DNA from: a virus
IMG/VR virus record: IMGVR_UViG_3300006119_000058
Location: 1 to 26,222 of that record
Length of the DNA stretch: 26,222 bases
Strand: one strand, 5' to 3'
Shown here: positions 1,833 to 24,268 of the stretch, in pieces
Position numbering within the stretch: position 1 is the stretch's first letter
Layout of the letters: the number at the start of each line of letters is the position of its first letter
Position numbers and translations under genes: made by a program
Notes under the pieces: generated by a model
Database searches by the model: none
The model's input: only the letters and a program-made list of their open reading frames with translations
Told to the model about the DNA's origin: nothing

Positions 1833-3983
1833 ATGCACAATAACTCAATGCCCCAAACTGCAAATTTGTTAAACATAGCGGACACGCACACTAACAATGT
1901 TGCACAACAGCAAAATGTTCCAAGTGGAATATCTCAATTAATGAATGCAAAAAATGCTCCTTCACAAATGGGTACTGGTTCATCTCCTAACTTAGCTACT
2001 AAAGCTTTACCAACAGCTGGTGCTATAGCAGGTGGTATTGGTGGTGGTATCGGTGGTACAGCTCTTGCTGGAGCGTTGTTACCAGAAGAAACAGCATTAG
2101 CTCCTGAAACTTTTGGATTATCTTATCTCCCTTCAGCTATTGCTTATCTTGGTGGTGTATTAGGTGCTGGTTTAGGACAAGCAGGCGGAAAAGCAGCGGA
2201 AAACGTTATGACTGGTCAGCCAGCTCAAAATAAATTAGCACAAAACTTTTTATACGGTGCTGGTGGTCAAGCAGGTGGTGAAGTTCTTGGTAAAGGACTT
2301 TCTATGTTGGGTACTAAAGTAGTCGCACCAACACTAGAAAAAGGTGCATCTAAACTCATTGGTGGACAACTTAAAGGTGCTCAAGGCGACATAGGTCAAT
2401 ACTCTAAAACAATACAACAAAGCAACATTTCAGATATTAGACAAGTACCTAGCTTATTCTCAAGAATAACTGGTGGTCTTGGTGCTGTAACCAAAGGTGT
2501 ATCTGATGCACTCACAACTTCTAACATAAAAGTGGATATGGGTGGATTTCTTGATACAGTAAAAAACGAATTACAAAGTCAACCATTAATTCAAAAAAAT
2601 GCTGAAAATAAATTATTATCCACAGCTCAAAAAACATTGTTTAACCTAACAGGTAAAAAAGGTGGACAAGTTGGTGTACAGGGTGCTGACCCTAACGCAG
2701 TTTTAAATGAAGTAAGAAATTGGGAAAAATTAGCCCAACAAAATTCTGCTAAAGGTGGTACGAATGCCGAAGCCGCTGCTATTGGTGATTTTGCTACTAA
2801 CATAGCTAGAAGTTTAGAAAGTTCGATATTTAAACCAGTTGACGCAGCAGGTAATGAAATAGCAACGCCGCTTACTAACCAAATTAAAACTAGCATGAAA
2901 GCTGGATTGGCTGATTTACAAAAAACTAACCCAACACTGTTTAATAGAATTTCTGGTCAAATAGATTCTGCAAAGACTATCAAAGATGCAAGAACTATAC
3001 AATCAGAATATGTAGGTGCATCAAAAGCATCACAAGATGCTATTAAACAACAATCTGCAAAGAGTGGTGTAACAGGTGGACAACTTGCACAAATAGCGGC
3101 ACCAGTACTTGGTGGACTTAGTGCAGGACCTATAGGTGCAGGATTTGGAGTAGCAGGAGCATTAGCTACAACTCCAACAGGTGAAAGATTAATCACTAAA
3201 GGTGTTCAAGGATTAGCTGGTAAAGCCGCAGGAACTACAGTTCCTAAAACAGTCATCGGAAAGACACTTAGCAATTTACCTAAAGGTTACCCAAAAGCAT
3301 TAACTGGATTAACAGCATTAGGTAGCACAGCAACAAATTATGGTCCACAAGCAACTGGAGCAGCAGGACAAACACAATTAACACAAGGAGCAGGTATGCA
3401 AGGAGCAGGAGCACCAGGAGCAGCAGGAGCAGCCCCAACACAAGATATTAACCCAAACATTTCAACACCAATAGCATTGATGCAATTAGCAGCTATGACA
3501 GACCCATTAATTTTCCAACAAATGGGTGGTGCATCAGCTCTACAAAATCTAACTAAGCCAGTAGCAGCAGCACAAACTGCACAACAAGGTTTACAATCCT
3601 TATATAATCCTACTTACGGAACTGGTGCACAAGCTGGACAAATTACAGGTTTAGGTGGAGCATACCAACAAGCTGGTGGTGGTCAAGGTATTTTAGGTGG
3701 TGGTGCTTCAGGAGTTCTATCACGACTATTTGGTGGTGGTGAAACTTCAAGATTTGCACAACAACAATCTGCTGAACAAAACGCAGTTAATGCAGCACTT
3801 AAAGCACAAGGTCTTGATATTAACGCTCCATTACCAGGAATTACATCTACTCCACAAGCAGCACAAGCTCAACTACAGTACATTCAGTCATTACTTAACC
3901 AACTTGGTGGTTCAATGCCACAAGCTCAGGGTGGTGGATATGTTCCACAAGGTGTATTAAATTCTATTCCTGCTGGGCAATAG
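1833..3983 (+). CDS. Large Gly/Ala-rich internal virion protein (putative DNA-ejection protein)
   Basis: A 716-residue protein starting 1 nt after the previous stop, so probably cotranscribed and coupled. Near residues 62-85 is a glycine-zipper membrane-type segment (AGAIAGGIGGGIGG followed by TALAGALL). A second Gly/Ala-rich hydrophobic segment lies around 105-125, and a third around 420-445. The middle (about 160-400) is helical and polar; the C-terminal 200 residues are Gln/Gly/Ala-rich. Such glycine zippers in a phage structural cluster suggest a protein that inserts into the host envelope during DNA delivery, like internal proteins of podoviruses. This is inferred from composition, not from a recognised domain. 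Its last 20 bases overlap the end of a convergent gene. Confidence 0.6.
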   Translation: MHNNSMPQTANLLNIADTHTNNVAQQQNVPSGISQLMNAKNAPSQMGTGSSPNLATKALPTAGAIAGGIGGGIGGTALAGALLPEETALAPETFGLSYLPSAIAYLGGVLGAGLGQAGGKAAENVMTGQPAQNKLAQNFLYGAGGQAGGEVLGKGLSMLGTKVVAPTLEKGASKLIGGQLKGAQGDIGQYSKTIQQSNISDIRQVPSLFSRITGGLGAVTKGVSDALTTSNIKVDMGGFLDTVKNELQSQPLIQKNAENKLLSTAQKTLFNLTGKKGGQVGVQGADPNAVLNEVRNWEKLAQQNSAKGGTNAEAAAIGDFATNIARSLESSIFKPVDAAGNEIATPLTNQIKTSMKAGLADLQKTNPTLFNRISGQIDSAKTIKDARTIQSEYVGASKASQDAIKQQSAKSGVTGGQLAQIAAPVLGGLSAGPIGAGFGVAGALATTPTGERLITKGVQGLAGKAAGTTVPKTVIGKTLSNLPKGYPKALTGLTALGSTATNYGPQATGAAGQTQLTQGAGMQGAGAPGAAGAAPTQDINPNISTPIALMQLAAMTDPLIFQQMGGASALQNLTKPVAAAQTAQQGLQSLYNPTYGTGAQAGQITGLGGAYQQAGGGQGILGGGASGVLSRLFGGGETSRFAQQQSAEQNAVNAALKAQGLDINAPLPGITSTPQAAQAQLQYIQSLLNQLGGSMPQAQGGGYVPQGVLNSIPAGQ

Positions 3984-4488: not shown

Positions 4489-4751
4489 TATTGTGGTCCA
4501 ATCTGCATCTTCCTTAATCTTTCTTGTTCTTCCCATTCAAGTCTTTGAGCTGTTTTGGGTTCAACAAGTCCTACATCACCATCTTGATTAACCTTGTAAG
4601 GGTCTACACGACCATACGCAGCATAAGTTGCACCTACATCAGGTTCTTCTTTTTTCAATTGAGCAGTCAATTCTGTAACTTTATCCCTCATATCTCTGAA
4701 TAAATAACCAAAACCCCAAGCTACAACAAATAGCAGTATGTAACTAATCAC
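4488..4751 (-). CDS. Small membrane-anchored protein, 87 residues
   Basis: It starts with GTG at 4751, overlapping the groEL-like stop by 8 nt (GTGATTAG), with AGGG about 8 nt upstream. Residues 2-18 (ISYILLFVVAWGFGYLF) form one hydrophobic transmembrane or signal-anchor segment. A charged coiled-coil-like stretch (DMRDKVTELTAQLKKEE) and an acidic hydrophilic tail follow. No family was recognised; the topology resembles small phage inner-membrane or spanin-like proteins, but there is no lipobox and it is not near the lysis cassette. It is translationally coupled to the chaperonin gene, suggesting coexpression. Confidence 0.6.
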   Translation of the reverse strand: MISYILLFVVAWGFGYLFRDMRDKVTELTAQLKKEEPDVGATYAAYGRVDPYKVNQDGDVGLVEPKTAQRLEWEEQERLRKMQIGPQ

Positions 4752-6297
4752 TTTTCATTTCCCTGTCTTTGAAAGTTAATCCAACAGTGGTGGTAATAAG
4801 AGTTGTTACAACACTTACAGCATTCACGACAGTCTGTTTAGTAACTTCAGCAGGGTCTATAATTCCAGCTTTTAATAGGTCAATAGGTTTAGTAGTGTAA
4901 TCACGCAAATCAAATCCATACCATACTTTTGATTCTTGCATTTTAAATAGTGCTTCTTCTGGATTGTTACCAGAGTTAGAAACTAATTGTTTAAAGGGTG
5001 CTTCAAAAGCTTCATTGAAATAATCTGTATCCATTCTAGCTAGTGTAGTTCCACCACCAGGCACAACTCCATCTCTTATGGCGGCTTGAGTAGCAGAGAT
5101 AGCATCATCAACTCGGTCTTTGATTTCATCTCTTTCACCCTCAGTAGCAGCACCAACACGAATGATAGCTATTTTACCTGTTAGCATACTCAGTCGTTTC
5201 TTAATCTCTTCTTTGTCTACTAGTGATTCAGCTTCTTTGTATTGCTTTCTCAAATCTTCTATACGAATTAATAAGTCTTCTTCAGCACCTTCTCCATTAA
5301 TTATAGATGTAGAAGTCGAACTAACATTTACAGTTGTTGCTCCACCAAGCATGTCTATCTCAAAGCTAGATGAGGGTGCTCCTTCGTCTAAAGCACGACC
5401 ACCTGTATAGCATGCTATGTCTTCTAAGAAAAGGGCTCTCATAGGTCCGTAGATAGGTACATCAACTAAAGTAGTAGTAATGTTACCTTTGGCTTTATTA
5501 AGTGCTAATGTAGCAAGTGCTTCATCTATGACTTCACCAATGATTACAATCTCGCAACCCTTACCTGCAGCCATTATTATCTTTTCTAAAATTGGTGTCA
5601 CATCACCAGCAGTTCTTAATGTTTTTTTGGTAATAAAAATGTCAGCGTTAGATACGTTTGATTCTAGGTTAGTAAAATTGTTTATTAAGTATTCGTTAGT
5701 AAAACCTTTCTTAAAATAAAGACCTTCTACTTCTTCATCGTAGCAACCAATTCCGTCAAACTTTTCTACTAAAATATTAGATTCAATACCGACTCGTTCA
5801 ATTACATCAGCAATCATTTCACCAAGAGCTTCATCGCTGGCGGATACTTTAGATACAAACCTAATTAACTCAGGGGTAGCATCAATTTTGATTTCATCAA
5901 TTTGTTCTAAAACATGGTTAGCAGATTCTCTAAGCATCTTAGCTACTTCCATACGATTGAAACCAGAACCAATAAGTTTCTTAGCTTCTTTATATAAGTA
6001 GTAACTTAAGATAACAACTGCAGTAGTACCATCACCAACAACTTGGTTGGATTTTTCACTAGCCTGAACTATAGTTCTGGCTGCCATGTTTTCCACAGGG
6101 TCTTCTAAAAATACTTTTCTAACATTAGTTACACCATCTCTAGAAGGATTTGGATAACCAAAGTTTTTTTCTACAAGAGCTATACCTGCACTAGGTCCAT
6201 AAGCTGCATTAGCTACTTGAAATAATTTTTCTACACCACTATCTAATCTATCTTCTAAGTCTTTACCAAAATAAATATCTCTAGCTAACTTGCCCAT
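4744..6297 (-). CDS. groEL-like: Phage-encoded GroEL-like group I chaperonin (divergent)
   Basis: A 517-residue protein collinear with bacterial GroEL/Cpn60, the ATP-driven double-ring folding machine of the cytoplasm. Equatorial ATP-site motifs are visible: YGPSAG (33-38, where bacteria have LGPKGRN), SRDGV (52-56, the D52 region of E. coli), GDGTT (88-92, with the D87 equivalent D89), VDDAISAT (396-403, retaining hydrolytic Asp398), GGG (414-416) and DPAEV (481-485, Asp495 equivalent). The apical domain (about 185-365) keeps DEALATLALN, part of the substrate/GroES-binding helix. However, the GFGDRRK motif is replaced by IYGPMRA, and a serine-rich variant stretch follows at 309-335. The GGM tail is absent. 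It starts 17 nt inside the groES-like gene with AGAGGG upstream. It probably helps fold phage capsid or other virion proteins; partner and independence from host GroES are untested. Confidence 0.9.
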   Translation of the reverse strand: MGKLARDIYFGKDLEDRLDSGVEKLFQVANAAYGPSAGIALVEKNFGYPNPSRDGVTNVRKVFLEDPVENMAARTIVQASEKSNQVVGDGTTAVVILSYYLYKEAKKLIGSGFNRMEVAKMLRESANHVLEQIDEIKIDATPELIRFVSKVSASDEALGEMIADVIERVGIESNILVEKFDGIGCYDEEVEGLYFKKGFTNEYLINNFTNLESNVSNADIFITKKTLRTAGDVTPILEKIIMAAGKGCEIVIIGEVIDEALATLALNKAKGNITTTLVDVPIYGPMRALFLEDIACYTGGRALDEGAPSSSFEIDMLGGATTVNVSSTSTSIINGEGAEEDLLIRIEDLRKQYKEAESLVDKEEIKKRLSMLTGKIAIIRVGAATEGERDEIKDRVDDAISATQAAIRDGVVPGGGTTLARMDTDYFNEAFEAPFKQLVSNSGNNPEEALFKMQESKVWYGFDLRDYTTKPIDLLKAGIIDPAEVTKQTVVNAVSVVTTLITTTVGLTFKDREMKSD

Positions 6298-6547
6298 AAT
6301 ACCCTCTTATATCTTCATACTTAATAAATGCGTAAGACTTGTCATCAATTTGGAATTGAGTACCATCTTTGTATTCTTCAAAATAAACTTTTTTGTCTAT
6401 GATGTCGACTATATCTAAATCTGTCGCAATTTTCTTTACTATGCCTGAAGTTTTAGTTGAGTATTGTTTGTCTGGTGTAGCAACATACTGAAATGATTCA
6501 GTTAATTCAACGAGTACACAACCATTTATTGGGTGTAAATTGTCCAT
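6281..6547 (-). CDS. groES-like: Phage GroES-like co-chaperonin
   Basis: An 88-residue protein with the GroES layout: HPINGCVLVEL at the N-terminus matches the first strand (RPLxDRVxV in GroES). A polar loop of about 20 residues (TESFQYVATPDKQYS and following) sits where the mobile loop lies, followed by SGIVKKIA (compare GxVxAVG). Then come KVYFEEYKDGTQFQI and the final YAFIKYEDIRGYYG, equivalent to the GroES end with its ESDILA-type motif. The mobile loop lacks an obvious GGIVL tripeptide before TSGIV, so GroEL specificity may differ. It is the first gene of a minus-strand operon. The ATG at 6547 coincides with the predicted transcription start, so the mRNA appears leaderless. Confidence 0.8.
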   Translation of the reverse strand: MDNLHPINGCVLVELTESFQYVATPDKQYSTKTSGIVKKIATDLDIVDIIDKKVYFEEYKDGTQFQIDDKSYAFIKYEDIRGYYGQVS

Positions 6548-6553
6548 AAGTGA

Positions 6554-6581
6554 ATTGTATCACATATATTGTTAAAACCAA
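6554..6581 (-). promoter_or_regulatory. Promoter of the groES-groEL operon (leaderless)
   Basis: Read on the minus strand: TTGGTT (6581-6576), a 16-nt spacer and TACAAT (6559-6554) with an extended -10 TG (TGATACAAT). Six bases separate the -10 from the ATG at 6547, so the usual +1 is the A of the start codon. No SD is possible. Its -35 region overlaps that of the divergent promoter B (6569-6597). Confidence 0.65.
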
Positions 6582-6620: not shown

Positions 6621-6644
6621 AGCCCCTTTGAGAGGGGTATTTTT
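6621..6644 (+). terminator. Intrinsic terminator-like hairpin in the leader of promoter B
   Basis: CCCCT (623-627 of 6600s) pairs with AGGGG (6633-6637) around a 5-nt loop, followed by TATTTTTAATTT. It lies about 19 nt after the predicted start of promoter B and before the SD of the 6663 gene. No plus-strand gene lies upstream until the end of the gene at 3983, so it is best read as an attenuator rather than an operon end. The T-run is interrupted, so termination may be partial. Confidence 0.65.
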
Positions 6645-6662: not shown

Positions 6663-6953
6663 ATGTTAGTCAAAGACTTACTTAAGGCAGATTTACCACC
6701 AACACATGCAGACGCAGTGATGCGTAAGAAGCATACACTTGGTTCTATTGAGCACAACTCTAATCACATTAAAGACCACGCTAAAGGTTTGGAAGATTCT
6801 TTGAATAAGTTATACACAGTTGATAGTAAAGAATATGCTAAACAATTAAAAATGGAATTAGCATCACTAAAAAAAATATATGACCACATAAACTCAATGA
6901 AAAAAGGTCCAAGTGATGGACATGACTGGAAACACAAAGGATTTCAAGCATGA
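6663..6953 (+). CDS. Small helical Lys/His-rich phage protein, 96 residues
   Basis: An ATG preceded by AAAAAGGA with a good spacing. The protein begins MLVKDLLKADLPPTHADAVM and is mostly alpha-helical and basic, with a DSLNKLYTVDSKEYAKQLK stretch that looks coiled coil, ending in a Gly/His/Lys-rich tail. No family was recognised. It is the first gene of a run of tiny genes, several of which begin with a similar short motif (M-x-(K)V-K-x-L). It overlaps the next start as ATGA, so it is probably coupled. It could be a minor virion or host-takeover protein; nothing in the sequence decides. Confidence 0.6.
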   Translation: MLVKDLLKADLPPTHADAVMRKKHTLGSIEHNSNHIKDHAKGLEDSLNKLYTVDSKEYAKQLKMELASLKKIYDHINSMKKGPSDGHDWKHKGFQA

Positions 6954-7782: not shown

Positions 7783-8637
7783 ATGGCTTATATAAACGCA
7801 TTAGATGTTTCGCAGTGGCAAGGTAATATTGATTGGAGTGCTGTAAGAGGTGGCGGTTATCAAATTGCTGTAATTAAAATATCAGGTGGAGATAATGGAC
7901 TCTACTACGATTCAAAAGCTACACAGAATTATTATGGTGCTAAAAATGCTGGACTAGCAATTGGTGGCTATCACTTTGCTGGTGGTCAAGACCCTAACTC
8001 TGAAGCTGAATACTTTGTAAAAGGTATGTCACCATTAGAAGAAAACGATGTTTTAGTATTAGATTGGGAAATTCAACACCCAGACCCAGTTGGTTGGTGT
8101 AACGCTTTTGTAAACAAAGTACACGACCTTTGTGGTGTATGGCCATTAATTTACATGAATGGTTCAACACTTAACTCACAAGATTGGTCACCAGTCACTA
8201 AAAACTGTGGCGTATGGGTAGCTTGGTATGGTCAAGACCCTAATGCAGATTTACCTGTTAAGTATCCTTACATCATGCACCAATACACAAGTTCAGGTCG
8301 AGTATCTGGAATTGGTGGTAACGTAGATTTAGATGCTTGGTACGCTAGTGTAGATACATGGAACAAATATGGTTATCACGCACCACAAACACCATCACCA
8401 ACTCCACCACCAGTAGAACCAACACCAGAAGTGCCTACACCGCCTACAACGCCTACACCACCTGTAGTAGAGCCAGTAGTTCCACCTGTTGAAACTCCTG
8501 TAGCTCCAGTTGTACCTCCAAAACCAACTCAGCCCGCTACTGTAACAGTTTCAGTTAGCAAGCCCATACAACCTGGTTTACTTAAAAAGATTATTGAAGC
8601 AATTCTTAGTCTTTTCAATAAAAAGAAAAAACAATAA
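7783..8637 (+). CDS. Endolysin: GH25 muramidase with Pro-rich linker and cationic C-terminal helix
   Basis: A 284-residue enzyme predicted to cleave the MurNAc-GlcNAc bond of peptidoglycan at the end of infection. The GH25 domain spans about 1-195: ALDVSQWQG (Asp8), GYHFA (62-66), LDWE (93-96, with Asp94 and catalytic-type Glu96), HQY (166-168) and VDLDAW (181-186). A Pro/Thr/Val-rich linker fills about 202-254. The C-terminus (about 260-284) is an amphipathic cationic helix, GLLKKIIEAILSLFNKKKKQ, in place of a usual cell-wall-binding repeat. A perfect SD (AAGGAGGT) precedes the ATG. No signal peptide is seen, so export would depend on a holin. GH25 endolysins are typical of phages of Gram-positive hosts. 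Confidence 0.9.
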   Translation: MAYINALDVSQWQGNIDWSAVRGGGYQIAVIKISGGDNGLYYDSKATQNYYGAKNAGLAIGGYHFAGGQDPNSEAEYFVKGMSPLEENDVLVLDWEIQHPDPVGWCNAFVNKVHDLCGVWPLIYMNGSTLNSQDWSPVTKNCGVWVAWYGQDPNADLPVKYPYIMHQYTSSGRVSGIGGNVDLDAWYASVDTWNKYGYHAPQTPSPTPPPVEPTPEVPTPPTTPTPPVVEPVVPPVETPVAPVVPPKPTQPATVTVSVSKPIQPGLLKKIIEAILSLFNKKKKQ

Positions 8638-16254: not shown

Positions 16255-16330
16255 GCCCTTGTAGCTCAGTTGGTAGAGCAATTGTTTTGTAAACAATGGG
16301 TCGCAGGTTCAAGTCCTGTCGAGGGCTCCA
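16255..16330 (+). tRNA. tRNA-Thr (anticodon UGU)
   Basis: A complete 76-nt cloverleaf: acceptor GCCCTTG (16255-16261) pairs with CGAGGGC (16320-16326, one G-U), the D arm has AGCTCAGTTGGTAGAGC, anticodon stem ATTGT/ACAAT (16281-16285, 16293-16297) closes loop TTTGTAA with anticodon TGT at 16288-16290, and the T arm has GGTTCAAGTCC. Discriminator T and the CCA end (16328-16330) are encoded. It reads ACA, a codon used heavily in these genes. Confidence 0.95.
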
Positions 16331-16519: not shown

Positions 16520-16954
16520 ATGGCAACTCTGAAGCAAAAGAAAGCTGCACAGTTTATAGCTAATGGAGATAGCGTTTCTAAAGCTATGAAGAAAGCAGGA
16601 TATACAGAAGCTAGTGCTAAGAACCCACAGTATTTAACTAAAAGTCAGTCTTTCTTAGAAATTATGGAAAAGTATGGAATTACTGATGATAAGTTATCCA
16701 CAGTATTGAATGAAGGATTAACAGCTACCAAAGCAGTTGTAATGGGTAAAGAAAGCACCGAAAGCTTTGTAGATGTACAACCTGATTTTGCTATTAGACA
16801 CAAATACCTAGAAACAGCATTGAAACTTAAAGGACATACCAAAGAAAGTACAACCAATAACATCACTATTAAATATAAGCCACTATTAGGGGGTAGAAGT
16901 GTTCAAGGATACAACAGCGACCGAAAAGTTATTGAAGCTGAAACAGAGGATTAG
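16520..16954 (+). CDS. terS: Terminase small subunit (TerS)
   Basis: A 144-residue protein starting MATLKQKKAAQFIANGDSVS with KAMKKAGYTEASAKNPQYL, a helix-turn-helix of the TerS type in which an N-terminal HTH binds phage DNA. The middle (ITDDKLSTVLNEGLTATKAV, FVDVQPDFAIRHKYLETALK) is the family's oligomerisation region. It lies immediately before the large subunit and overlaps it by 56 bases, as usual. TerS recognises the packaging site and regulates TerL. No SD precedes the ATG. Confidence 0.8.
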   Translation: MATLKQKKAAQFIANGDSVSKAMKKAGYTEASAKNPQYLTKSQSFLEIMEKYGITDDKLSTVLNEGLTATKAVVMGKESTESFVDVQPDFAIRHKYLETALKLKGHTKESTTNNITIKYKPLLGGRSVQGYNSDRKVIEAETED

Positions 16955-18221
16955 AGGAGTAGCTGGTGGTACATCTGCTGGTAAGACTATTTCTATTCTC
17001 CAAATACTTATAGACTACGCTTCCTGCTGTGGAGTCAAACCAGATAACTGGGACGATGATGTTAAATTTATAGAATGCACACCTAAATTGATATCAGTTG
17101 TGTCTGAATCATTTCCACACCTTCGTAGAGGTGCTATCAGGGATTTCATAAACATCATGGCAGATAGAGGTTACTATGTGGATAGTGAGTGGACAAAGAC
17201 AGAATTTACTTACACTTTTCCCAGTGGTTCTAAGATAGAGTTTTTCAGTGCAGACCAACCTGGTAAAGTGCGTGGTCCTAGACGTGATGTATTGTATGTA
17301 AATGAAGCAAACAACATAGATTATGAAAGCTTTGACCAGCTCAGAGTTCGTACTAGAGAAATTATATGGTTAGACTGGAACCCTACCAATGAGTTCTGGT
17401 GGTATACAGAAATAGTTCCAAATTATCCACATGATTTCATAACACTTACATACAAAGACAACGAAGGTTTGAGTCAAGAGCTTATAGACGATATTGAATC
17501 ACACAGACACAACAAACAATGGTGGAGAGTCTATGGTGAAGGTAAGCTAGGTGAACTAGAAGGCAAAGTATATCGTGATTGGGTTATCATTGATGAAATA
17601 GCACACGAAGCCAGACTAGAACGAAGAGGTATGGACTTTGGTTATTCCAATGACCCAACAGCAATAATAGATGTCTACTACTACAATGGTGGATTTATAC
17701 TTGATGAAAGATTGTATCGCAAAGGACTTAGCAACAAACAAATAGCAGACTTTCTTAACAACGCATCTAATCCTGAAACATTAATCATTGCAGATAGTGC
17801 AGAGCCTAAAAGTATTGACGAACTTAGATTGTATGGTGTGAATGTATTACCAGCACAAAAAGGACAGGGCAGTATATTGCAGGGTATTCAGTATGTCCAA
17901 AACCAAAGAGTTAGCATGACCAAGCGTAGTCTTAACTTAATTAAAGAGTATCGTAACTATATGTGGAAAGCTGACAAGCTAGTACCAGACAAGTATTTAA
18001 ACATTCCAGAAGATATAAACAACCACCTTATGGACGCATTACGCTATGCTCTTGAAGGCTATGCTAGAAACAGTACAGGAGAAATAGGAGTAGTAAACTC
18101 AGTACCTCCAAATGCACAAAAGGAATCATTCTATGTCAATGAAAATGGTGAGGCAGAAATGTTCCACATTAACGTTGCTGATGTAATTAAAAGAAACCAA
18201 GAGGAGAATTGGTATTTATGA
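16899..18221 (+). CDS. terL: Terminase large subunit (TerL)
   Basis: A 440-residue packaging ATPase/nuclease. Walker A GGTSAGKT at about 23-30. A Walker B-like stretch DVLYVNEA in the middle, followed by WLDWNPTNEFWW. Nuclease-domain acidic motifs: MDFGYSNDPTA (first Asp), LIIADSAEPKS (second), and NNHLMDALRYALEGY near the end. This order matches the phage TerL of the Terminase_3/6 group: ATP-driven DNA translocation into the procapsid and cutting at packaging ends. It starts GTG with AGGGGG upstream, inside the TerS gene. The stop overlaps the methyltransferase ATG. Confidence 0.95.
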   Translation: MFKDTTATEKLLKLKQRIRGVAGGTSAGKTISILQILIDYASCCGVKPDNWDDDVKFIECTPKLISVVSESFPHLRRGAIRDFINIMADRGYYVDSEWTKTEFTYTFPSGSKIEFFSADQPGKVRGPRRDVLYVNEANNIDYESFDQLRVRTREIIWLDWNPTNEFWWYTEIVPNYPHDFITLTYKDNEGLSQELIDDIESHRHNKQWWRVYGEGKLGELEGKVYRDWVIIDEIAHEARLERRGMDFGYSNDPTAIIDVYYYNGGFILDERLYRKGLSNKQIADFLNNASNPETLIIADSAEPKSIDELRLYGVNVLPAQKGQGSILQGIQYVQNQRVSMTKRSLNLIKEYRNYMWKADKLVPDKYLNIPEDINNHLMDALRYALEGYARNSTGEIGVVNSVPPNAQKESFYVNENGEAEMFHINVADVIKRNQEENWYL

Positions 18222-19258
18222 AATACTTTAGTATGTTTAGTGGAATAGGAGGATTTGAATTTGGAATACAACGAGCTATTAAGAGTAGGACAAGCGAGCA
18301 ACATAGGAAGCCAAGCAGGAATGATATACAGCGACAAAGGAATATTTCCAACGATAGCAGCTTGCACTCACGGTTACGCTCTGGGTTATGTGTTGGTTAC
18401 TCCGAAATTGATAAATACGCAATTAAAGTCTACGAAAGGAACTTCAATGGACACACAAACTATGGAAACGCCACAACTATCAACCCAAGCGAACTCCCAG
18501 ATTTTGACCTTCTTGTCGGAGGATTTCCTTGCCAAGCTTTCAGTATTGCTGGAAAAAGAAAAGGATTTGACGACACCAGAGGCACACTCTTCTTTGATAT
18601 CGCTAGGATTCTCGCAGAAAAAAAACCCAAACATTTGGTACTTGAAAATGTCAAAGGTTTACTTACTCACGAAAAAGGAAGAACTTTCCAGACAATCATT
18701 GGGGTTCTTGCCGACTTGGGGTATGGAGTTGAATGGCAGGTACTTAACAGCAAAGACTTCGGAGTTCCCCAAAACAGGGAAAGGGTCATCATTGTCGGAC
18801 ATCTTGGAAACAAATGTGAACGAAAAATATTTCCTATCATCAACAATTCAGGAGAAACTATTAAATATGATGTCAGTGGAAGCCAAAGGGATAGAGTTTA
18901 CAACAAGTCAGGAATAGCTCCTACTTTACCTACAATGCAAGGTGGCAACACACACCCTAAAATAATTGTTTCTAGAAAACATAGAACTAAAGTAGATTTA
19001 CAAGACATTTCTAGCACATTAACATCATCATTTAGAGGACAACCAGACGGGGACGGAAGACCAGCAATATTTAATAATGCTCGCATACGCAGACTAACAC
19101 CTAAAGAATGCGAACGCTTACAAGGTTTTCCTGATGACTTTACTAAATATGGCGTAGGTGATGAGCCTATTAGCGACACACAACGATATAAGATGTGTGG
19201 TAACGCAGTAACAACAAATGTAATACAAGCAGTTATGGAGAAACTATATGATAATTAG
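18218..19258 (+). CDS. DNA (cytosine-5) methyltransferase
   Basis: A 346-residue enzyme with all C5-methylase motifs in order: FSGIGGF (7-13, SAM binding), PCQ (104-106, catalytic Cys105), ENV (143-145), QNRER (185-189), a variable target-recognition region about 200-300, RRLTPKECERLQGF (301-314) and GNA (338-340). The frame opens at a TTG, but the ATG at 18218 makes ATGA with TerL and is preferred. Between motif I and GYSEIDKYA is an extra basic insertion (about 21-57, KSRTSEQHRKPSRNDIQRQR and on), unusual for the family. The whole first two-thirds is overlapped by another long open frame on the same strand. Likely role: protection of phage DNA from host restriction; the target sequence is unknown. 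Confidence 0.95.
   Translation: MKYFSMFSGIGGFEFGIQRAIKSRTSEQHRKPSRNDIQRQRNISNDSSLHSRLRSGLCVGYSEIDKYAIKVYERNFNGHTNYGNATTINPSELPDFDLLVGGFPCQAFSIAGKRKGFDDTRGTLFFDIARILAEKKPKHLVLENVKGLLTHEKGRTFQTIIGVLADLGYGVEWQVLNSKDFGVPQNRERVIIVGHLGNKCERKIFPIINNSGETIKYDVSGSQRDRVYNKSGIAPTLPTMQGGNTHPKIIVSRKHRTKVDLQDISSTLTSSFRGQPDGDGRPAIFNNARIRRLTPKECERLQGFPDDFTKYGVGDEPISDTQRYKMCGNAVTTNVIQAVMEKLYDN
18255..18917 (+). other. Long alternative reading frame inside the methyltransferase
   Basis: 220 codons without a stop in the +1 frame of the methyltransferase, opening at a TTG. Residues about 9-47 (RVGQASNIGSQAGMIYSDKG then IFPTIAACTHGYALGYVL) look like a C5-methylase target-recognition motif of the type GxxxxxSQxxxVYxxxGxxPT, also present in the methyltransferase's own frame (GSQRDRVYNKSGIAPTLP at residues 221-238). 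Near its end is SSLSDILETNVNEKYFLS, which resembles segments seen between motifs in other C5 methylases. It may be an overprinted gene, a captured out-of-frame domain fragment, or a by-product of coding bias. Listed as a frame, not as a proven gene. Confidence 0.3.
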
Positions 19259-19469
19259 CATGTACATATATCACAATACATTGCCACAGCGTGAGGTAAA
19301 TATTATCTATTGTTTTAAATGTCGGAAGCCAATGTTTAGATGCTCAGGCAATCGTTTTGTAATTAGCAATGGTGGAGTCAGTGACGATAAAGCATACGGA
19401 CCAAGCTCACATTACATAGAATTTATATGTAAGAATTGCGTAACAACATACCAGGTATTGTTTCAATAA
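19248..19469 (+). CDS. Small zinc-ribbon protein
   Basis: A 73-residue protein starting ATG 19248, with GGAG seven bases upstream, overlapping the methyltransferase stop by 11 bases. It has YCFKCRKPM (Cys-x2-Cys) and ICKNCVTTYQV near the end (a second Cys-x2-Cys), about 35 residues apart, a four-Cys zinc ribbon. No specific family. It ends about 50 nt before the promoter of the portal unit. Confidence 0.6.
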   Translation: MIISMYIYHNTLPQREVNIIYCFKCRKPMFRCSGNRFVISNGGVSDDKAYGPSSHYIEFICKNCVTTYQVLFQ

Positions 19470-19523
19470 ATGAAACTTTCTTGGGGTGAAATCAATTTCA
19501 ATAGCACATTTTCAAATATGATG

Positions 19524-19529
19524 TATAAT
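19524..19529 (+). promoter_or_regulatory. Promoter C (ATAGGCA type) before the portal gene
   Basis: TATAAT at 19524-19529, then seven bases and ATAGGCAACTAA (from 19537), the same start-site box as promoters A and B. No clear -35 is seen, so it is weaker evidence than the others. A terminator follows at 19552. Confidence 0.55.
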
Positions 19530-19551
19530 AAAGACCATAGGCAACTAATAC

Positions 19552-19578
19552 AGCTCTCATGGTAGAGCTATTTTTATT
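19552..19578 (+). terminator. Intrinsic terminator after promoter C
   Basis: AGCTCT (19552-19557) pairs with AGAGCT (19564-19569) over a 6-nt loop CATGGT, followed by ATTTTTATTT. It begins about 15 nt after the predicted start of promoter C and ends 13 nt before the portal ATG. It may also end the upstream terminase-methyltransferase unit. Confidence 0.75.
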
Positions 19579-19590
19579 TAAAGGACAACA

Positions 19591-21801
19591 ATGAGTACAG
19601 TTTGGGATAGAGAACAAGTAGCAAAACCACTAAATGATATTAGGGTAGATAACTATCAAGGGCAGAAAGAAGTCATTGATACACTGCCATCTCTTTCTAT
19701 TCAAATTGATGACCTACAACTCATTAAGAACTTGGAACAAAGAGTCCAAGACTCCAAGGATTATTGGGACACACCAGACGGATTTAACTTAGCTAAGGTT
19801 CGTGGAGATAATGAACGAGTGTACTTGGGTAAACAGACAGATGTTCGTTCACTTTATCGTTTTCAAATGCCTTACATTGAAAACCAAGTCTACATTGCAG
19901 AGCAAGCTATCATGGCATACCTTACAGCTCGTGAACCACAATCAGAAGTTAGCCCAGCCAATGATTCACCTACATCAAAGCAGTTTGCATTAGACTTAGA
20001 AAAGATACATATGGCACACAGCCAAAAGATTAAGCTTGGTCGTATTATGGAAAGCGTAGTTAGGAATGCACTCAACAAGAGAATTGGTTTAATTAAGTTT
20101 GAGTTTGACCCTGACTATGGCAAGAATGGTGAGATACTTGCACACGCAGTAAACCCAGAGCATGTTGTTGTAGACAAGAACGCCGCACAAGGTGAGAACC
20201 CTGCATTTATCGACATGACACTTAAGATGAGCATCAACGAAGTATGCCACAGGTGGCCAGAGAAAAAAGAAGAAATCTACAAAGCATCTGGCATTAAGCG
20301 TGGCACATACAAACAGCTTGAAGAAATGATTGCTATCCACGAAACATACTTAACCTACTACGACAAGAAGTATGAACCACACGAAGCATTAGTTTACTGG
20401 TTCTCTGATGTAATATTAGAGAAGAGCAAAAACCCACATTTCATTTACAGCGACCGAGATAGAAACTTCTTTGATGCACCAATGAAGCCATACATTGCAT
20501 TGAACTTTGATAACGATGGTACACACTGGATTGACCAGACATCAGCAGTAGAGCAAGCACAGCCACTACAGAGCGTACTCAACAAGCGTGGTCGTCAGCT
20601 TATGGAAGTTGCAGACAAAGCCAATGGTATCTTAGTAGTATCCAGTGATTCAGGACTTAGCAAAGATGACCTACAGAACCTTACAGGTGACCCTAACCAA
20701 AGACTACTAATTAAAACTGCAGGTAAAGCAACACAGGACATGGTATTCCAAGTACCACCACCAGTTGTGCCTAACTTTCTATATCAGGATAAGATTGATT
20801 TGCGAACTCAAGTGGCTAACTTAATGGGAGCACCAGTAGACTTCTCTGGTGTAGACAGTGCCGAGAACGAAAAGAACACACTTGGTGAAACATTATTAAA
20901 GAAGAACCAAGCATCTGGTCGACAAGACTTATATGTTCGTTCAATTGATAGATTCTCATCTGACTATTACAGCTTCCTCACACAAATGATGTGTGTTTGG
21001 TACAACGAAGACCACTACTTTGTATACAATGGCGGTGACGGACAGTTTGATTACCTAACAGCTAACCGATACTTATTTGAAGATGGTATTGCAGTGTCAG
21101 TTAAAGCAGGCTCAACTCCACCACTCGACAAACAAAGAGAAGAAGTAATTGCTATGAACTTATCCAAAGACGCACTACTATCTCCACTTGACATTTACAA
21201 GATGCTTCACTTGCAAAGCCCACAGAAGCTTTACGATAACTGGGCTAAGTTTAAAACTGACCCAATGTCATTGGCTCGTGATGCTATGGACGGTGTTGAT
21301 GAAACCAAAGCATACATGGCTTACACACTCATCATGAACGATGTAGAACCAGAAGAACCTAAAGACTGCAACAAAGAATACATACTTACACTACGCAAGC
21401 TGATGTTGAGCGATGGCTTCTTGAAAGCTGAAAAGAAATATCAGAACGCATTCTTGAAGTTTGTAAACAAAGCTATTGACTCATTAGAAAAGCGGACAGC
21501 ATTAGACCAAATGGCACAGCAAGGTATACAAATGCTTGAACCAAACGTACCATTACAACCACCACAACCAGAACAAATGGGAGCTATGCCAGGAATGCCA
21601 CCAGCACCAGGTATGCCACCACAAGGTATGCCGCCAACAACTGGTATGCCACCAATGGGACCAACAGGTCAAGCAGGACCACCACTTCCTCCTCCAGGTT
21701 TAGACTTATCAGCATTAGGTGGAGCACGACCTAATTTAAATAACGCAGCAGCACCTCAACCAATCAACCCAGCCAGCCCTACACAATTGCCTAATCTCTA
21801 A
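19591..21801 (+). CDS. Portal protein
   Basis: A 736-residue protein with the size and position of a phage portal: after terminase, before scaffold and capsid. The first 550 residues are mixed alpha/beta (SLYRFQMPYIENQVYIAEQA, GLIKFEFDPDYG, QPLQSVLNKRGRQLMEVADK, QVANLMGAPVDFSG), typical of dodecameric portals that form the DNA channel. The last ~90 residues are a Met/Pro/Gly-rich, low-complexity tail (QMGAMPGMPPAPGMPPQG and further PPLPPPG). The ATG at 19591 has AAGGACAACA upstream. Assigned by order, length and fold-like pattern rather than one motif. Confidence 0.85.
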   Translation: MSTVWDREQVAKPLNDIRVDNYQGQKEVIDTLPSLSIQIDDLQLIKNLEQRVQDSKDYWDTPDGFNLAKVRGDNERVYLGKQTDVRSLYRFQMPYIENQVYIAEQAIMAYLTAREPQSEVSPANDSPTSKQFALDLEKIHMAHSQKIKLGRIMESVVRNALNKRIGLIKFEFDPDYGKNGEILAHAVNPEHVVVDKNAAQGENPAFIDMTLKMSINEVCHRWPEKKEEIYKASGIKRGTYKQLEEMIAIHETYLTYYDKKYEPHEALVYWFSDVILEKSKNPHFIYSDRDRNFFDAPMKPYIALNFDNDGTHWIDQTSAVEQAQPLQSVLNKRGRQLMEVADKANGILVVSSDSGLSKDDLQNLTGDPNQRLLIKTAGKATQDMVFQVPPPVVPNFLYQDKIDLRTQVANLMGAPVDFSGVDSAENEKNTLGETLLKKNQASGRQDLYVRSIDRFSSDYYSFLTQMMCVWYNEDHYFVYNGGDGQFDYLTANRYLFEDGIAVSVKAGSTPPLDKQREEVIAMNLSKDALLSPLDIYKMLHLQSPQKLYDNWAKFKTDPMSLARDAMDGVDETKAYMAYTLIMNDVEPEEPKDCNKEYILTLRKLMLSDGFLKAEKKYQNAFLKFVNKAIDSLEKRTALDQMAQQGIQMLEPNVPLQPPQPEQMGAMPGMPPAPGMPPQGMPPTTGMPPMGPTGQAGPPLPPPGLDLSALGGARPNLNNAAAPQPINPASPTQLPNL

Positions 21802-21814
21802 TTCGTGATACAAT
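21787..21814 (+). promoter_or_regulatory. Promoter before the scaffold gene
   Basis: TTGCCT (21787-21792), 16-nt spacer and TACAAT (21809-21814) with extended -10 TG at 21806-21807. Predicted start about 21821, then AAGGAG before the ATG at 21842. The -35 is inside the portal gene end, and no hairpin follows it. Confidence 0.6.
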
Positions 21815-21841
21815 ACAATTAAGTAATTTAAGGAGCATTCT

Positions 21842-22819
21842 ATGGCAGATGCAAACATACCAGGTTTCACAGCCAGCCCAGAGCTGGAGAGGAAGCTTAA
21901 CGCTTTAGATGATAATTTAAATCCTATAACTAAGGAGTTAGTCGAAAATGAAGACGATGCAACAGAGAAAACAACAGAAGAGAATGAAGCAGTTGATGAA
22001 ACTGAAGAAGAACAGGAAGTCGTTGAATCTGAAGAAGCAAGCGATGATAGTGAAGAAAGCAATGATGAGGAAAATGGCTATACGATAGATGACGATTCTG
22101 ATGATGAAGAAGAAGTCGTTGCTGAAACACCTACCGAAACCCAGACAGTTAATCGTTCAGACCTTAACCCAGAACAACAATACATACTAGACAACATTCG
22201 ACCTATTAAGGTAAGAGGTAGTATTGGTGTAGATGGTGAAGTACAAGAATATGAAGTATTAAGCCCAGAGCAACTACCACAAGGTTTCCACTATGTAGAC
22301 CAACGTGAGATGAGTATTGCTAACAAGAACTTCTCATTATTAGAAAACCGAGCTTTGGAATTACAGAACGATTTTCGTACACAGGAAACAACCAAAGCTG
22401 CACAACAGTTCAGAGAACTGGAAGACAATGCAGACCGAGCAGACATTAACGAACTACAAAAGGAAGGTGAGCTACCTAAGTTTAAGGCAGCACCTAACGA
22501 CCCTAACTTTGAGAAAGACCCAGCAACAGTATTAATCCAAGAGATTCTTGACTTCAAAGAAGACATGAATAATCGTTACATGGAAGAGTACAACGCTGGC
22601 CGACCTTACAGACACATTGGATTCCAAGAAGCCTATGCAATGTATAGAAGACAGAATCCTAAGGTAAGTCCTAAGCAACAAGCTGAAGACAATGAAAGGA
22701 AGGGAATAGCTCGTAGAACATCAAACGTTAAGAGTAGAAGCCAACCAGAACGAGCTAAAGTAACTCGTGGTATGAGCAGTAGAGATTTAGACATATATTT
22801 AGAAAACTTAGACATATAG
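21842..22819 (+). CDS. Scaffold-like protein
   Basis: A 325-residue protein between portal and capsid, the usual place of scaffold. Residues about 20-95 are strongly acidic (runs of E, D and S), the middle is helical (LENRALELQNDFRTQETTKA, QFRELEDNADRADINELQK), and the last 50 residues are basic (RKGIARRTSNVKSRSQPER). An acidic coiled middle with a basic C-terminus that binds capsid protein is a known scaffold design. It has an SD (AAGGAG) and its own promoter. Confidence 0.7.
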   Translation: MADANIPGFTASPELERKLNALDDNLNPITKELVENEDDATEKTTEENEAVDETEEEQEVVESEEASDDSEESNDEENGYTIDDDSDDEEEVVAETPTETQTVNRSDLNPEQQYILDNIRPIKVRGSIGVDGEVQEYEVLSPEQLPQGFHYVDQREMSIANKNFSLLENRALELQNDFRTQETTKAAQQFRELEDNADRADINELQKEGELPKFKAAPNDPNFEKDPATVLIQEILDFKEDMNNRYMEEYNAGRPYRHIGFQEAYAMYRRQNPKVSPKQQAEDNERKGIARRTSNVKSRSQPERAKVTRGMSSRDLDIYLENLDI

Positions 22820-22828
22820 AGGAGTAAT

Positions 22829-23092
22829 ATGCAAAATTGGTTTATAGCAGCGTTAGAGTCAGCAGGTATCTGGACACATGAACAAGCTGAACATGTATCA
22901 AAGGAAATAAGACTACACATTCACAAAGAAAACTATCAGGAAGCAGTGTTGGAACTATCATCTATCTTAGATAAGTTTAGAAGTGAAGAACTACCTATTG
23001 TAGAAAAACTACAAAACAGGATTGCTCAATTAGAAGCAGATGTTGAAAAACTAACAGCTACAAAAACTGTTGCAAAGCCTAAGAAAGTTTAG
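22829..23092 (+). CDS. Unknown small helical protein, 87 residues
   Basis: GAGGAG precedes the ATG. It is helical and coiled-coil-like (LQNRIAQLEADVEKLTATKT) with a basic end (VAKPKKV). It lies between scaffold and capsid, where small auxiliary head proteins are often found, but no function is visible. Its stop lies next to the -10 of promoter D. Confidence 0.55.
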   Translation: MQNWFIAALESAGIWTHEQAEHVSKEIRLHIHKENYQEAVLELSSILDKFRSEELPIVEKLQNRIAQLEADVEKLTATKTVAKPKKV

Positions 23093-23098
23093 TATTAT
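23070..23098 (+). promoter_or_regulatory. Promoter D (ATCAGGCA type) before the capsid gene
   Basis: TTGCAA (23070-23075), 17-nt spacer and TATTAT (23093-23098). Predicted start A23105 gives RNA ATCAGGCAGTGAAATTAAAG, close to the box of A-C. The -35 lies in the gene before. Confidence 0.6.
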
Positions 23099-23120
23099 AA
23101 CCTTATCAGGCAGTGAAATT

Positions 23121-23145
23121 AAAGCCCATCACAGGGCTTTTTTTT
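23121..23145 (+). terminator. Intrinsic terminator after promoter D
   Basis: AAAGCCC (23121-23127) pairs with GGGCTTT (23134-23140) over loop ATCACA, followed by eight T (23138-23145). It lies about 16 nt after the predicted start and about 30 nt before the capsid SD. Confidence 0.85.
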
Positions 23146-23179
23146 ATTGGTGATGTAACAAACTAAATAAGGAGATAAT

Positions 23180-24268
23180 ATGGCAGGAATGGTATTTACC
23201 GATAGAGTGGCAGACATCACCTATCAAGACATACTTCCAACGATTGTTGACCAAATCAACAACTCGAACGTCTTATTGGCTCGTGTACTTAGCAAACCAG
23301 GAAACTGGAAGGGTGTATACGAATCACAGCCAATTGAAACAGCCAACAGTACAACTGGTGGTTCTTTCTCAGGAATGGACACATTCCCAACTTCAGCAAC
23401 TAACAATACACGTCTTATGACTTGGTACTTGGCAGCTTACGAGCAGTCAGTAGTAGTACCTGGTATTGAAAGAGCTGTAAACGCTAACAACGAAAAGCAA
23501 GTTTTGATGCTTCTTAAGACTCGTCTTGACGAAGCTAAAATCTCAGCTAACCAAAGTGTTGGTCAGATTGCTTACGGTGTTGGTTCAGGAAAAGACTTTG
23601 ACGGTCTTGGATTAATCGTTGACAACGGTACAAACTCAAGCTCATACGCTGGTTTGACTCGTTCAAGCAACACATTTGTAAACGCAGACGTAACAGCTGT
23701 AACAAGCGGTATCATTACTCTTGATTACCTATCAAGCGAATTCGATAACGTATCAGCTGCTGGTTCAACTTCAGAAAGCCCAACAATTGGTCTTACAACT
23801 AAGACTATCTGGACTTACATCGAAGGTTTGATTCAGCCTATGGTTTCTGCTCGATACGACACACTACAACTTCGTGGATACGACAGAGTAGATGGTGGTA
23901 CACCAAATGGTCAGACTCGACCTTCAGGTGAGCAAACTTCAGGTTTCGCTGGATTTAACGCTATTAGTTACAGGGCTCGTCCTTTAGTAGCTGATGACAA
24001 CTGTACATCACAGACATTCTTCTGGTTGAACGAAAACTACATGGAATTCAAGCGTCTTATTGACTCAGGTCTTAAGCAAATTAGTTCTACTGTAGATGTT
24101 ACAGAAGGTTACTACAAAGATGTACCATTCCCAAGTGCTTGGCAATTCCGAGAATTGATTTCTCCTGTCAACCAGTATGGTGAAGTAGGTCTACTTATCC
24201 TTATGGGTAACTTAATCCACAGACAACCTCGAAGAAACGGTAAACTAACTGGTATTACTTCAAACTAG
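23180..24268 (+). CDS. Major capsid protein
   Basis: A 362-residue protein after scaffold. Its plan fits an HK97-type coat protein: N-terminal ITYQDILPTIVDQINNSNVL, a beta-rich loop (TTGGSFSGMDTFPTSATNNT), LMTWYLAAYEQSVVVPGIER, a Gly/Ser-rich middle, an aromatic region (SQTFFWLNENYMEFKRLID), and LISPVNQYGEVGLLILMGNL near the end. It is preceded by AAGGAGATAAT and by its own attenuated promoter. Strong use of C-ending codons (AAC, GAC, TAC) compared with upstream genes fits high expression. Confidence 0.8.
   Translation: MAGMVFTDRVADITYQDILPTIVDQINNSNVLLARVLSKPGNWKGVYESQPIETANSTTGGSFSGMDTFPTSATNNTRLMTWYLAAYEQSVVVPGIERAVNANNEKQVLMLLKTRLDEAKISANQSVGQIAYGVGSGKDFDGLGLIVDNGTNSSSYAGLTRSSNTFVNADVTAVTSGIITLDYLSSEFDNVSAAGSTSESPTIGLTTKTIWTYIEGLIQPMVSARYDTLQLRGYDRVDGGTPNGQTRPSGEQTSGFAGFNAISYRARPLVADDNCTSQTFFWLNENYMEFKRLIDSGLKQISSTVDVTEGYYKDVPFPSAWQFRELISPVNQYGEVGLLILMGNLIHRQPRRNGKLTGITSN

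Follow-up and report, generated by a model that had tools for sequence, protein, structure and literature searches.

A chaperonin and co-chaperonin pair encoded by a phage

Why would a phage carry a chaperonin and a co-chaperonin of its own? The question is raised by a 26,222-base IMG/VR virus record (the window, the whole stretch of DNA analysed here), which is probably a fragment. The first-pass annotation had read a chaperonin plus co-chaperonin pair on the minus strand at 4744-6547, and both open reading frames are present there: groES, the first gene of the operon, at 6547-6281 (88 residues) and groEL at 6297-4744 (517 residues), the two overlapping by 17 bp. Pfam profiles and AlphaFold2 (AF2) models searched with Foldseek agree on these assignments. 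The operon had also been described as lying amid plus-strand genes, and the flanking terminase, portal, capsid and endolysin genes are indeed all on the plus strand. The terminase, C5-methyltransferase, portal and major capsid protein genes span 16899-24268, with the capsid gene at 23180-24268, and a GH25 endolysin, recognized by Pfam, is encoded at 7783-8637. The C5-cytosine methyltransferase gene (18209-19258, plus strand; Pfam 2.6e-83) overlaps the 3' end of the terminase gene, and is found beside terminase in few relatives only (L002, L027 and L028). The window also contains one tRNA-Thr gene (anticodon TGT, 16255-16330, plus strand).

The GroEL protein matched Pfam Cpn60_TCP1 (E = 1.5e-46, above the curated cut-off) and PHROG 5725, 'chaperonin groEL' (E = 2.7e-103). 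Its AF2 monomer model (pLDDT 87.6) has the three-domain Cpn60 fold, with TM scores of up to 0.87 against GroEL structures. Together with the active-site alignment given below, these matches identify a diverged group I chaperonin. GroES matched Pfam Cpn10 (E = 1.4e-6, above the curated cut-off), and its AF2 model (pLDDT 79) is the expected beta-barrel, for which the best Foldseek matches in the PDB were all GroES/Cpn10 proteins at probability 1.00. A phmmer search of the PDB with the window GroES returned nothing relevant.

The pair is a core module of a phage lineage

A scan of viral contigs with the single GroEL sequence found nothing, whereas scans based on the capsid protein and on a GroEL alignment did find relatives. 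Among the IMG/VR relatives recovered by their capsid protein, all 23 of those at least 28 kb long encoded a PF00118 chaperonin, and the capsid-matched relatives that lacked one were exclusively shorter fragments (<28 kb). The nearest named capsid relative was TM7 phage DolZOral124_53_65 (MG269973), with 57% identity in the capsid protein and 38% in the portal, and a further relative was a contig binned in a metagenome-assembled genome (MAG). In every one of 28 genomes, these two and the window included, the chaperonin gene was opposite in strand to the major capsid protein gene, as judged from match orientations. The scan with the GroEL alignment gave 55 loci, and a GroES profile detected an upstream GroES in 41 of the 50 examined; most of those without GroES had GroEL identities of 30% or less, and nearly all of the close loci had one. 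One groEL match (L245, 6001-7494) has an in-frame stop, which may be an assembly error, a frame slip or an inactivated copy, and it was excluded from the alignment.

GroEL divergence followed that of the portal (Mantel r = 0.87), the major capsid protein (0.81) and GroES (0.81; p = 0.0005 for each). Nei-Gojobori dN/dS values for the three closest sequences were 0.10-0.18 for GroEL and 0.15-0.25 for GroES, with dS near saturation. Given this co-divergence with portal and capsid under purifying selection, GroEL is a vertically inherited core gene, and the GroES-GroEL pair is a core module carried and maintained by the phages themselves.

The chaperonin probably came from the host lineage

The relative in the genome collection is a 41-kb contig with the chaperonin, binned in the 0.9-Mb MAG MAS4.bin52, and sampled genomes of the phylum of this MAG are 0.4-2.0 Mb in size, as expected of Patescibacteria. 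The DolZOral124_53_65 record names candidate division TM7 as the host. These two items, one host field and one binning, are good but indirect evidence that the hosts are Patescibacteria (TM7/Saccharibacteria-like), very small and probably parasitic bacteria.

A tree built from GroELs of phages and hosts united the proteins of this phage lineage in one clade (support 100/100) on a long stem of 1.18 substitutions per site. This clade lay inside the Patescibacteria GroELs and adjoined the GroEL of MAS4.bin52 (91/66). When 30 more GroELs of the class were added, the phage clade joined the branch (SH-aLRT 98-99) that separates all other sequences from a class clade of 20 rows, in which the MAS4.bin52 host GroEL is included. 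The simplest reading of the tree is that these phages captured the chaperonin of their host lineage long ago, a derivation that the tree strongly suggests, although, as the stem is long, the exact sister or donor may be affected by long-branch effects. A single phage chaperonin lineage uniting these proteins with those of immuto, DAC20 and LR756501 was rejected (p-AU 0.0059).

Recent acquisition, in which the proteins would sit within a recent host lineage and have no phage relatives, is excluded by the dozens of phage relatives, by the 32-36% identity to host GroELs and by the vertical inheritance.

Anatomy of the phage GroEL and GroES

The first-pass annotation held that the main ATP residues of GroEL were kept. 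This is true of the acidic and catalytic residues. On alignment with E. coli GroEL, residues D52, D87, T89, S151, D398, G415 and D495 were retained throughout the aligned lineage, and the GDGTT motif was intact in the window and in nearly all other members, a few of which differ at G88 or T90. It does not extend to three other positions of the pocket: T30 is replaced by A, S or G, T91 by A, G or L, and K51 by R or H in nearly all members of the lineage (H or N is frequent at this position in the hosts as well). Owing to these changes the rate and allostery of the enzyme may differ from those of GroEL.

Two segment replacements noted earlier, LGPKGRN to YGPSAGI and GFGDRRK to IYGPMRA, are present in the window sequence, and the GGM tail is likewise missing: GroEL ends in KSD, and the tail is absent from the whole phage lineage. 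A Gly-Met-rich C-terminal tail is common in group I chaperonins, but is neither universal nor strictly defining. The supposed Ser-rich apical insert did not hold up. The stretch in question, APSSSFEIDMLGGATTVNVSSTSTSIING, aligns to E. coli GroEL without an insertion and is two residues shorter there, and its serines are local, being mostly absent from relatives. Of the peptide-groove positions, 204, 237 and 259 are mostly still hydrophobic, and 203 and 234 are changed.

In the equatorial domain about 18 residues are deleted after PGGG, as in the EL-like phage sequence, in which the GGM tail is missing too and ring-contact residues of this region have been lost. R452, which the hosts keep, is nearly always lost, E461 is usually N and the region of residue 434 is altered. 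In GroEL the R452 and E461 region makes ring-ring contacts; hence, weaker ring pairing is predicted. This suggests that the phage rings separate or work singly, a reading that depends on alignment across the deletion and on residues some of which are absent from the hosts also. Separating or single rings have reportedly been seen for phages EL and OBP.

In the GroES model residues 19-26, at the expected position of the mobile loop, are of very low confidence. The corresponding region of the window protein, ESFQYVATPDKQYSTKTSG, has a degenerate form (YVAT-PDK) of the canonical GGIVL motif with its hydrophobic tripeptide, and the GroES proteins of several relatives keep G-I/V-x-L/M/V-P-E/D in the loop. 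T4 Gp31 has an altered mobile loop and a reduced roof region. The roof region of the window GroES is also shortened. However, the host MAG's own GroES is likewise short there, so the short roof is not specific to the phage, and a roofless GroES as a phage novelty like Gp31 was discarded.

A five-gene operon led by groES and groEL

The earlier description of the operon was correct for GroES and GroEL but overlooked three further minus-strand genes between 4751 and 3964. The operon thus has five genes, with groES and groEL leading, and the three small genes are conserved along with the pair in the lineage. Gene 3 (4751-4488) encodes 87 residues with an N-terminal hydrophobic stretch and a conserved C-terminal motif of the PKTPxxLEWE type; most relatives, like the TM7 phage, keep the gene for this TM protein behind groEL. 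Gene 4 (4536-4246) encodes 96 residues as called, of which the conserved part is about 80 residues beginning MGYVLNGKYY, and has a motif of the QRxDxxxDIIQPYxxxGxPNxxFI type. It is kept in the operons of relatives, including that of the TM7 phage (CQ476_29). Gene 5 (4236-3964; 90 residues) is kept in most relatives, and its 3' end overlaps a convergent plus-strand gene (1833-3983) by 20 bp. Neither Pfam nor PHROGs gave a convincing family match for genes 3-5.

Upstream of groES is a promoter-like site on the minus strand at 6554-6581, TTGGTT-16-TACAAT with an extended -10 (TGATACAAT). The -10 box ends 6 nt before the ATG, and there is no Shine-Dalgarno sequence in 6548-6581; the groES mRNA of the window is probably leaderless. 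A generic promoter scan did not include this site among its calls, and its promoter counts equalled the shuffled background. The promoter reading therefore rests on comparison among relatives, in which -10-like hexamers cluster 5-9 nt ahead of the groES start (12 in that bin). Roughly half of the lineage members, among them the window and loci L062, L065, L068, L173-L178 and L183, have a -10-like hexamer, often extended (TGn), whose end is 6-9 nt from the start codon of groES, and have no Shine-Dalgarno sequence; other members do have one before groES. Leaderless transcription of groES is thus probable in roughly half of the lineage. The gap separating the start of groES from the divergent gene at 6663 contains a terminator-like hairpin with a T-run (6622-6638, plus strand), and G+C-rich inverted repeats seem to recur there in some relatives.

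Comparison with known phage chaperonins

The closest known counterpart is the cassette CQ476_26-30 of the TM7 phage, which likewise lies on the other strand from the capsid gene and encodes in order a GroES-like protein, Cpn60, a TM protein, an IQPN/IQPY protein and a further small gene product. Its GroEL differs from that of the window in being shorter (480 residues), with 32-33% identity. The GroES-like protein has 100 residues, is below Pfam detection and is annotated as hypothetical; by position and alignment we take this protein, CQ476_26 (L045, 14894-15196), to be the diverged GroES of the TM7 phage.

The first-pass annotation considered a linked GroES to be less usual. Linked pairs are in fact known: neighbouring GroES and GroEL genes are annotated in Flavobacterium phages immuto and elemo and in Cellulophaga phage phi40:1. 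According to the paper on the phage EL structure (PMC7185714), which cites a virioplankton survey, phages with GroES alone are numerous, some have both proteins and few have GroEL alone. Unlike the window phage, immuto, elemo and phi40:1 have larger genomes with no detectable relative of the window capsid, and their GroELs (27-33% identical) lie outside the clade of the window protein, for immuto by explicit test. Pseudomonas phages EL (gp146) and OBP (gp246) also encode chaperonins, for which no GroES partner is known, and the EL-like sequence is 19% identical to the window GroEL. T4 Gp31 is a phage co-chaperonin with the GroES fold, to which the window GroES is a weak structural match (1g31). 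As summarized in PMC6318259, Gp31 replaces GroES in working with the host GroEL, whereas the window groES adjoins a phage groEL.

A more distant relative, Manatee Spring myovirus MW202566 (capsid 30% and portal 23% identical), also encodes GroES and GroEL as a pair, next to the genes for terminase and portal (L276, 5695-7646; the GroES is annotated 'mhsp60'). Unlike the pair of the window, it is on the same strand as the capsid gene, and its GroEL falls in a different Patescibacteria clade. From its position in the tree this appears to be a second, independent capture.

A proposed dedicated folding machine for phage proteins

We propose, with a probability of roughly three in four, that the locus encodes a working GroES-GroEL folding machine dedicated to phage proteins, in a tailed phage of Patescibacteria that obtained it by an old host capture. 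During infection the phage GroEL ring would bind one or a few non-native phage proteins, phage GroES would cap the ring by means of the modified mobile loop that it has, and folding would be powered by ATP hydrolysis, as in GroEL/GroES. The pair would work beside the host chaperonin, probably orthogonally to it, given that both the loop and the groove have diverged. The first-pass annotation suggested a pair tuned to a phage substrate such as capsid or the large ejection protein, which is plausible. The major capsid protein would be the first candidate substrate, since it is never missing and since a captured pair is also found in a distantly related phage with this type of head; other candidates would be the endolysin and the large Gly/Ala-rich protein of 716 residues encoded beside the operon (1833-3983). 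A strict requirement of the capsid family for a chaperonin is unsupported, as the distant capsid relatives Mx8, Mx9 and MW202803 (~23% identity) have none.

It is unlikely, we believe, that the phage GroEL acts instead as a holdase or timing device, for example by keeping the endolysin or another late protein inactive until release, as proposed for phage EL. In phage EL the chaperonin is associated with endolysin gp188, and it kept a model substrate from aggregating but did not refold it (PMC7185714), the window encodes a GH25 endolysin, and the altered ATP-pocket residues could slow the cycle. However, the EL chaperonin has no known GroES partner and did not bind E. coli GroES (PMC7185714), whereas most of the lineage studied here has kept a GroES that co-diverges with GroEL, a sign of encapsulation and folding.

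More improbable still is that the phage supplies a chaperonin which its hosts lack or have lost. In the sample of the inferred host phylum 15 of 145 genomes (10 of 61 in the class) show no GroEL, but genes missing from MAGs may reflect incompleteness, and GroEL and GroES are each found in 130 of the 145. Moreover, MAS4.bin52, in which the phage contig was binned, carries a groES-groEL pair of its own, and the phage copy is kept throughout the lineage rather than just where hosts lack GroEL. As about 90% of the phylum carries its own GroEL/ES, the phage pair fills no host gap, and we reject this as a general explanation. That the genes are cargo (a moron), recently copied from a host groESL and dispensable to the phage, would be in keeping with the tree position beside host-class GroELs, but is largely refuted by the low identity to any host GroEL, lineage-wide fixation, low dN/dS and vertical descent alongside portal and major capsid protein.

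The dedicated folding machine may have a wider form, which we put forward tentatively and think rather unlikely: the five genes might make up one assembly module, in which a ring-separating GroEL, GroES and three partners, one of them membrane-anchored, deliver or release specific virion proteins, with phages of this head family having captured host chaperonins more than once.

Implications

Phages with both GroEL and GroES were already known (PMC7185714 and annotations), as was the Cpn60 annotation of the TM7 phage. A search of mainly open-access literature on phage GroEL or chaperonins and Patescibacteria, Saccharibacteria or the candidate phyla radiation found no title or abstract describing such a cassette. 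As far as our searches reached, what is new is that a lineage of Patescibacteria phages has the pair as a fixed core cassette, together with the recognition of the GroES of this lineage, the origin in the host class and the three attached undescribed families. The named phage GroEL/GroES pairs found here are scattered and mostly in larger genomes. In contrast, a lineage of ~40-kb phages, whose hosts are reduced and probably parasitic bacteria, has the pair in all long genomes examined, although these hosts usually have a GroEL and GroES of their own. Why a phage needs a private chaperonin thus becomes a testable question, in a system with fixed partners, a strict five-gene cassette and many natural variants, which can be compared with the host ancestor and with distant capsid-family relatives that have an independent chaperonin or none.
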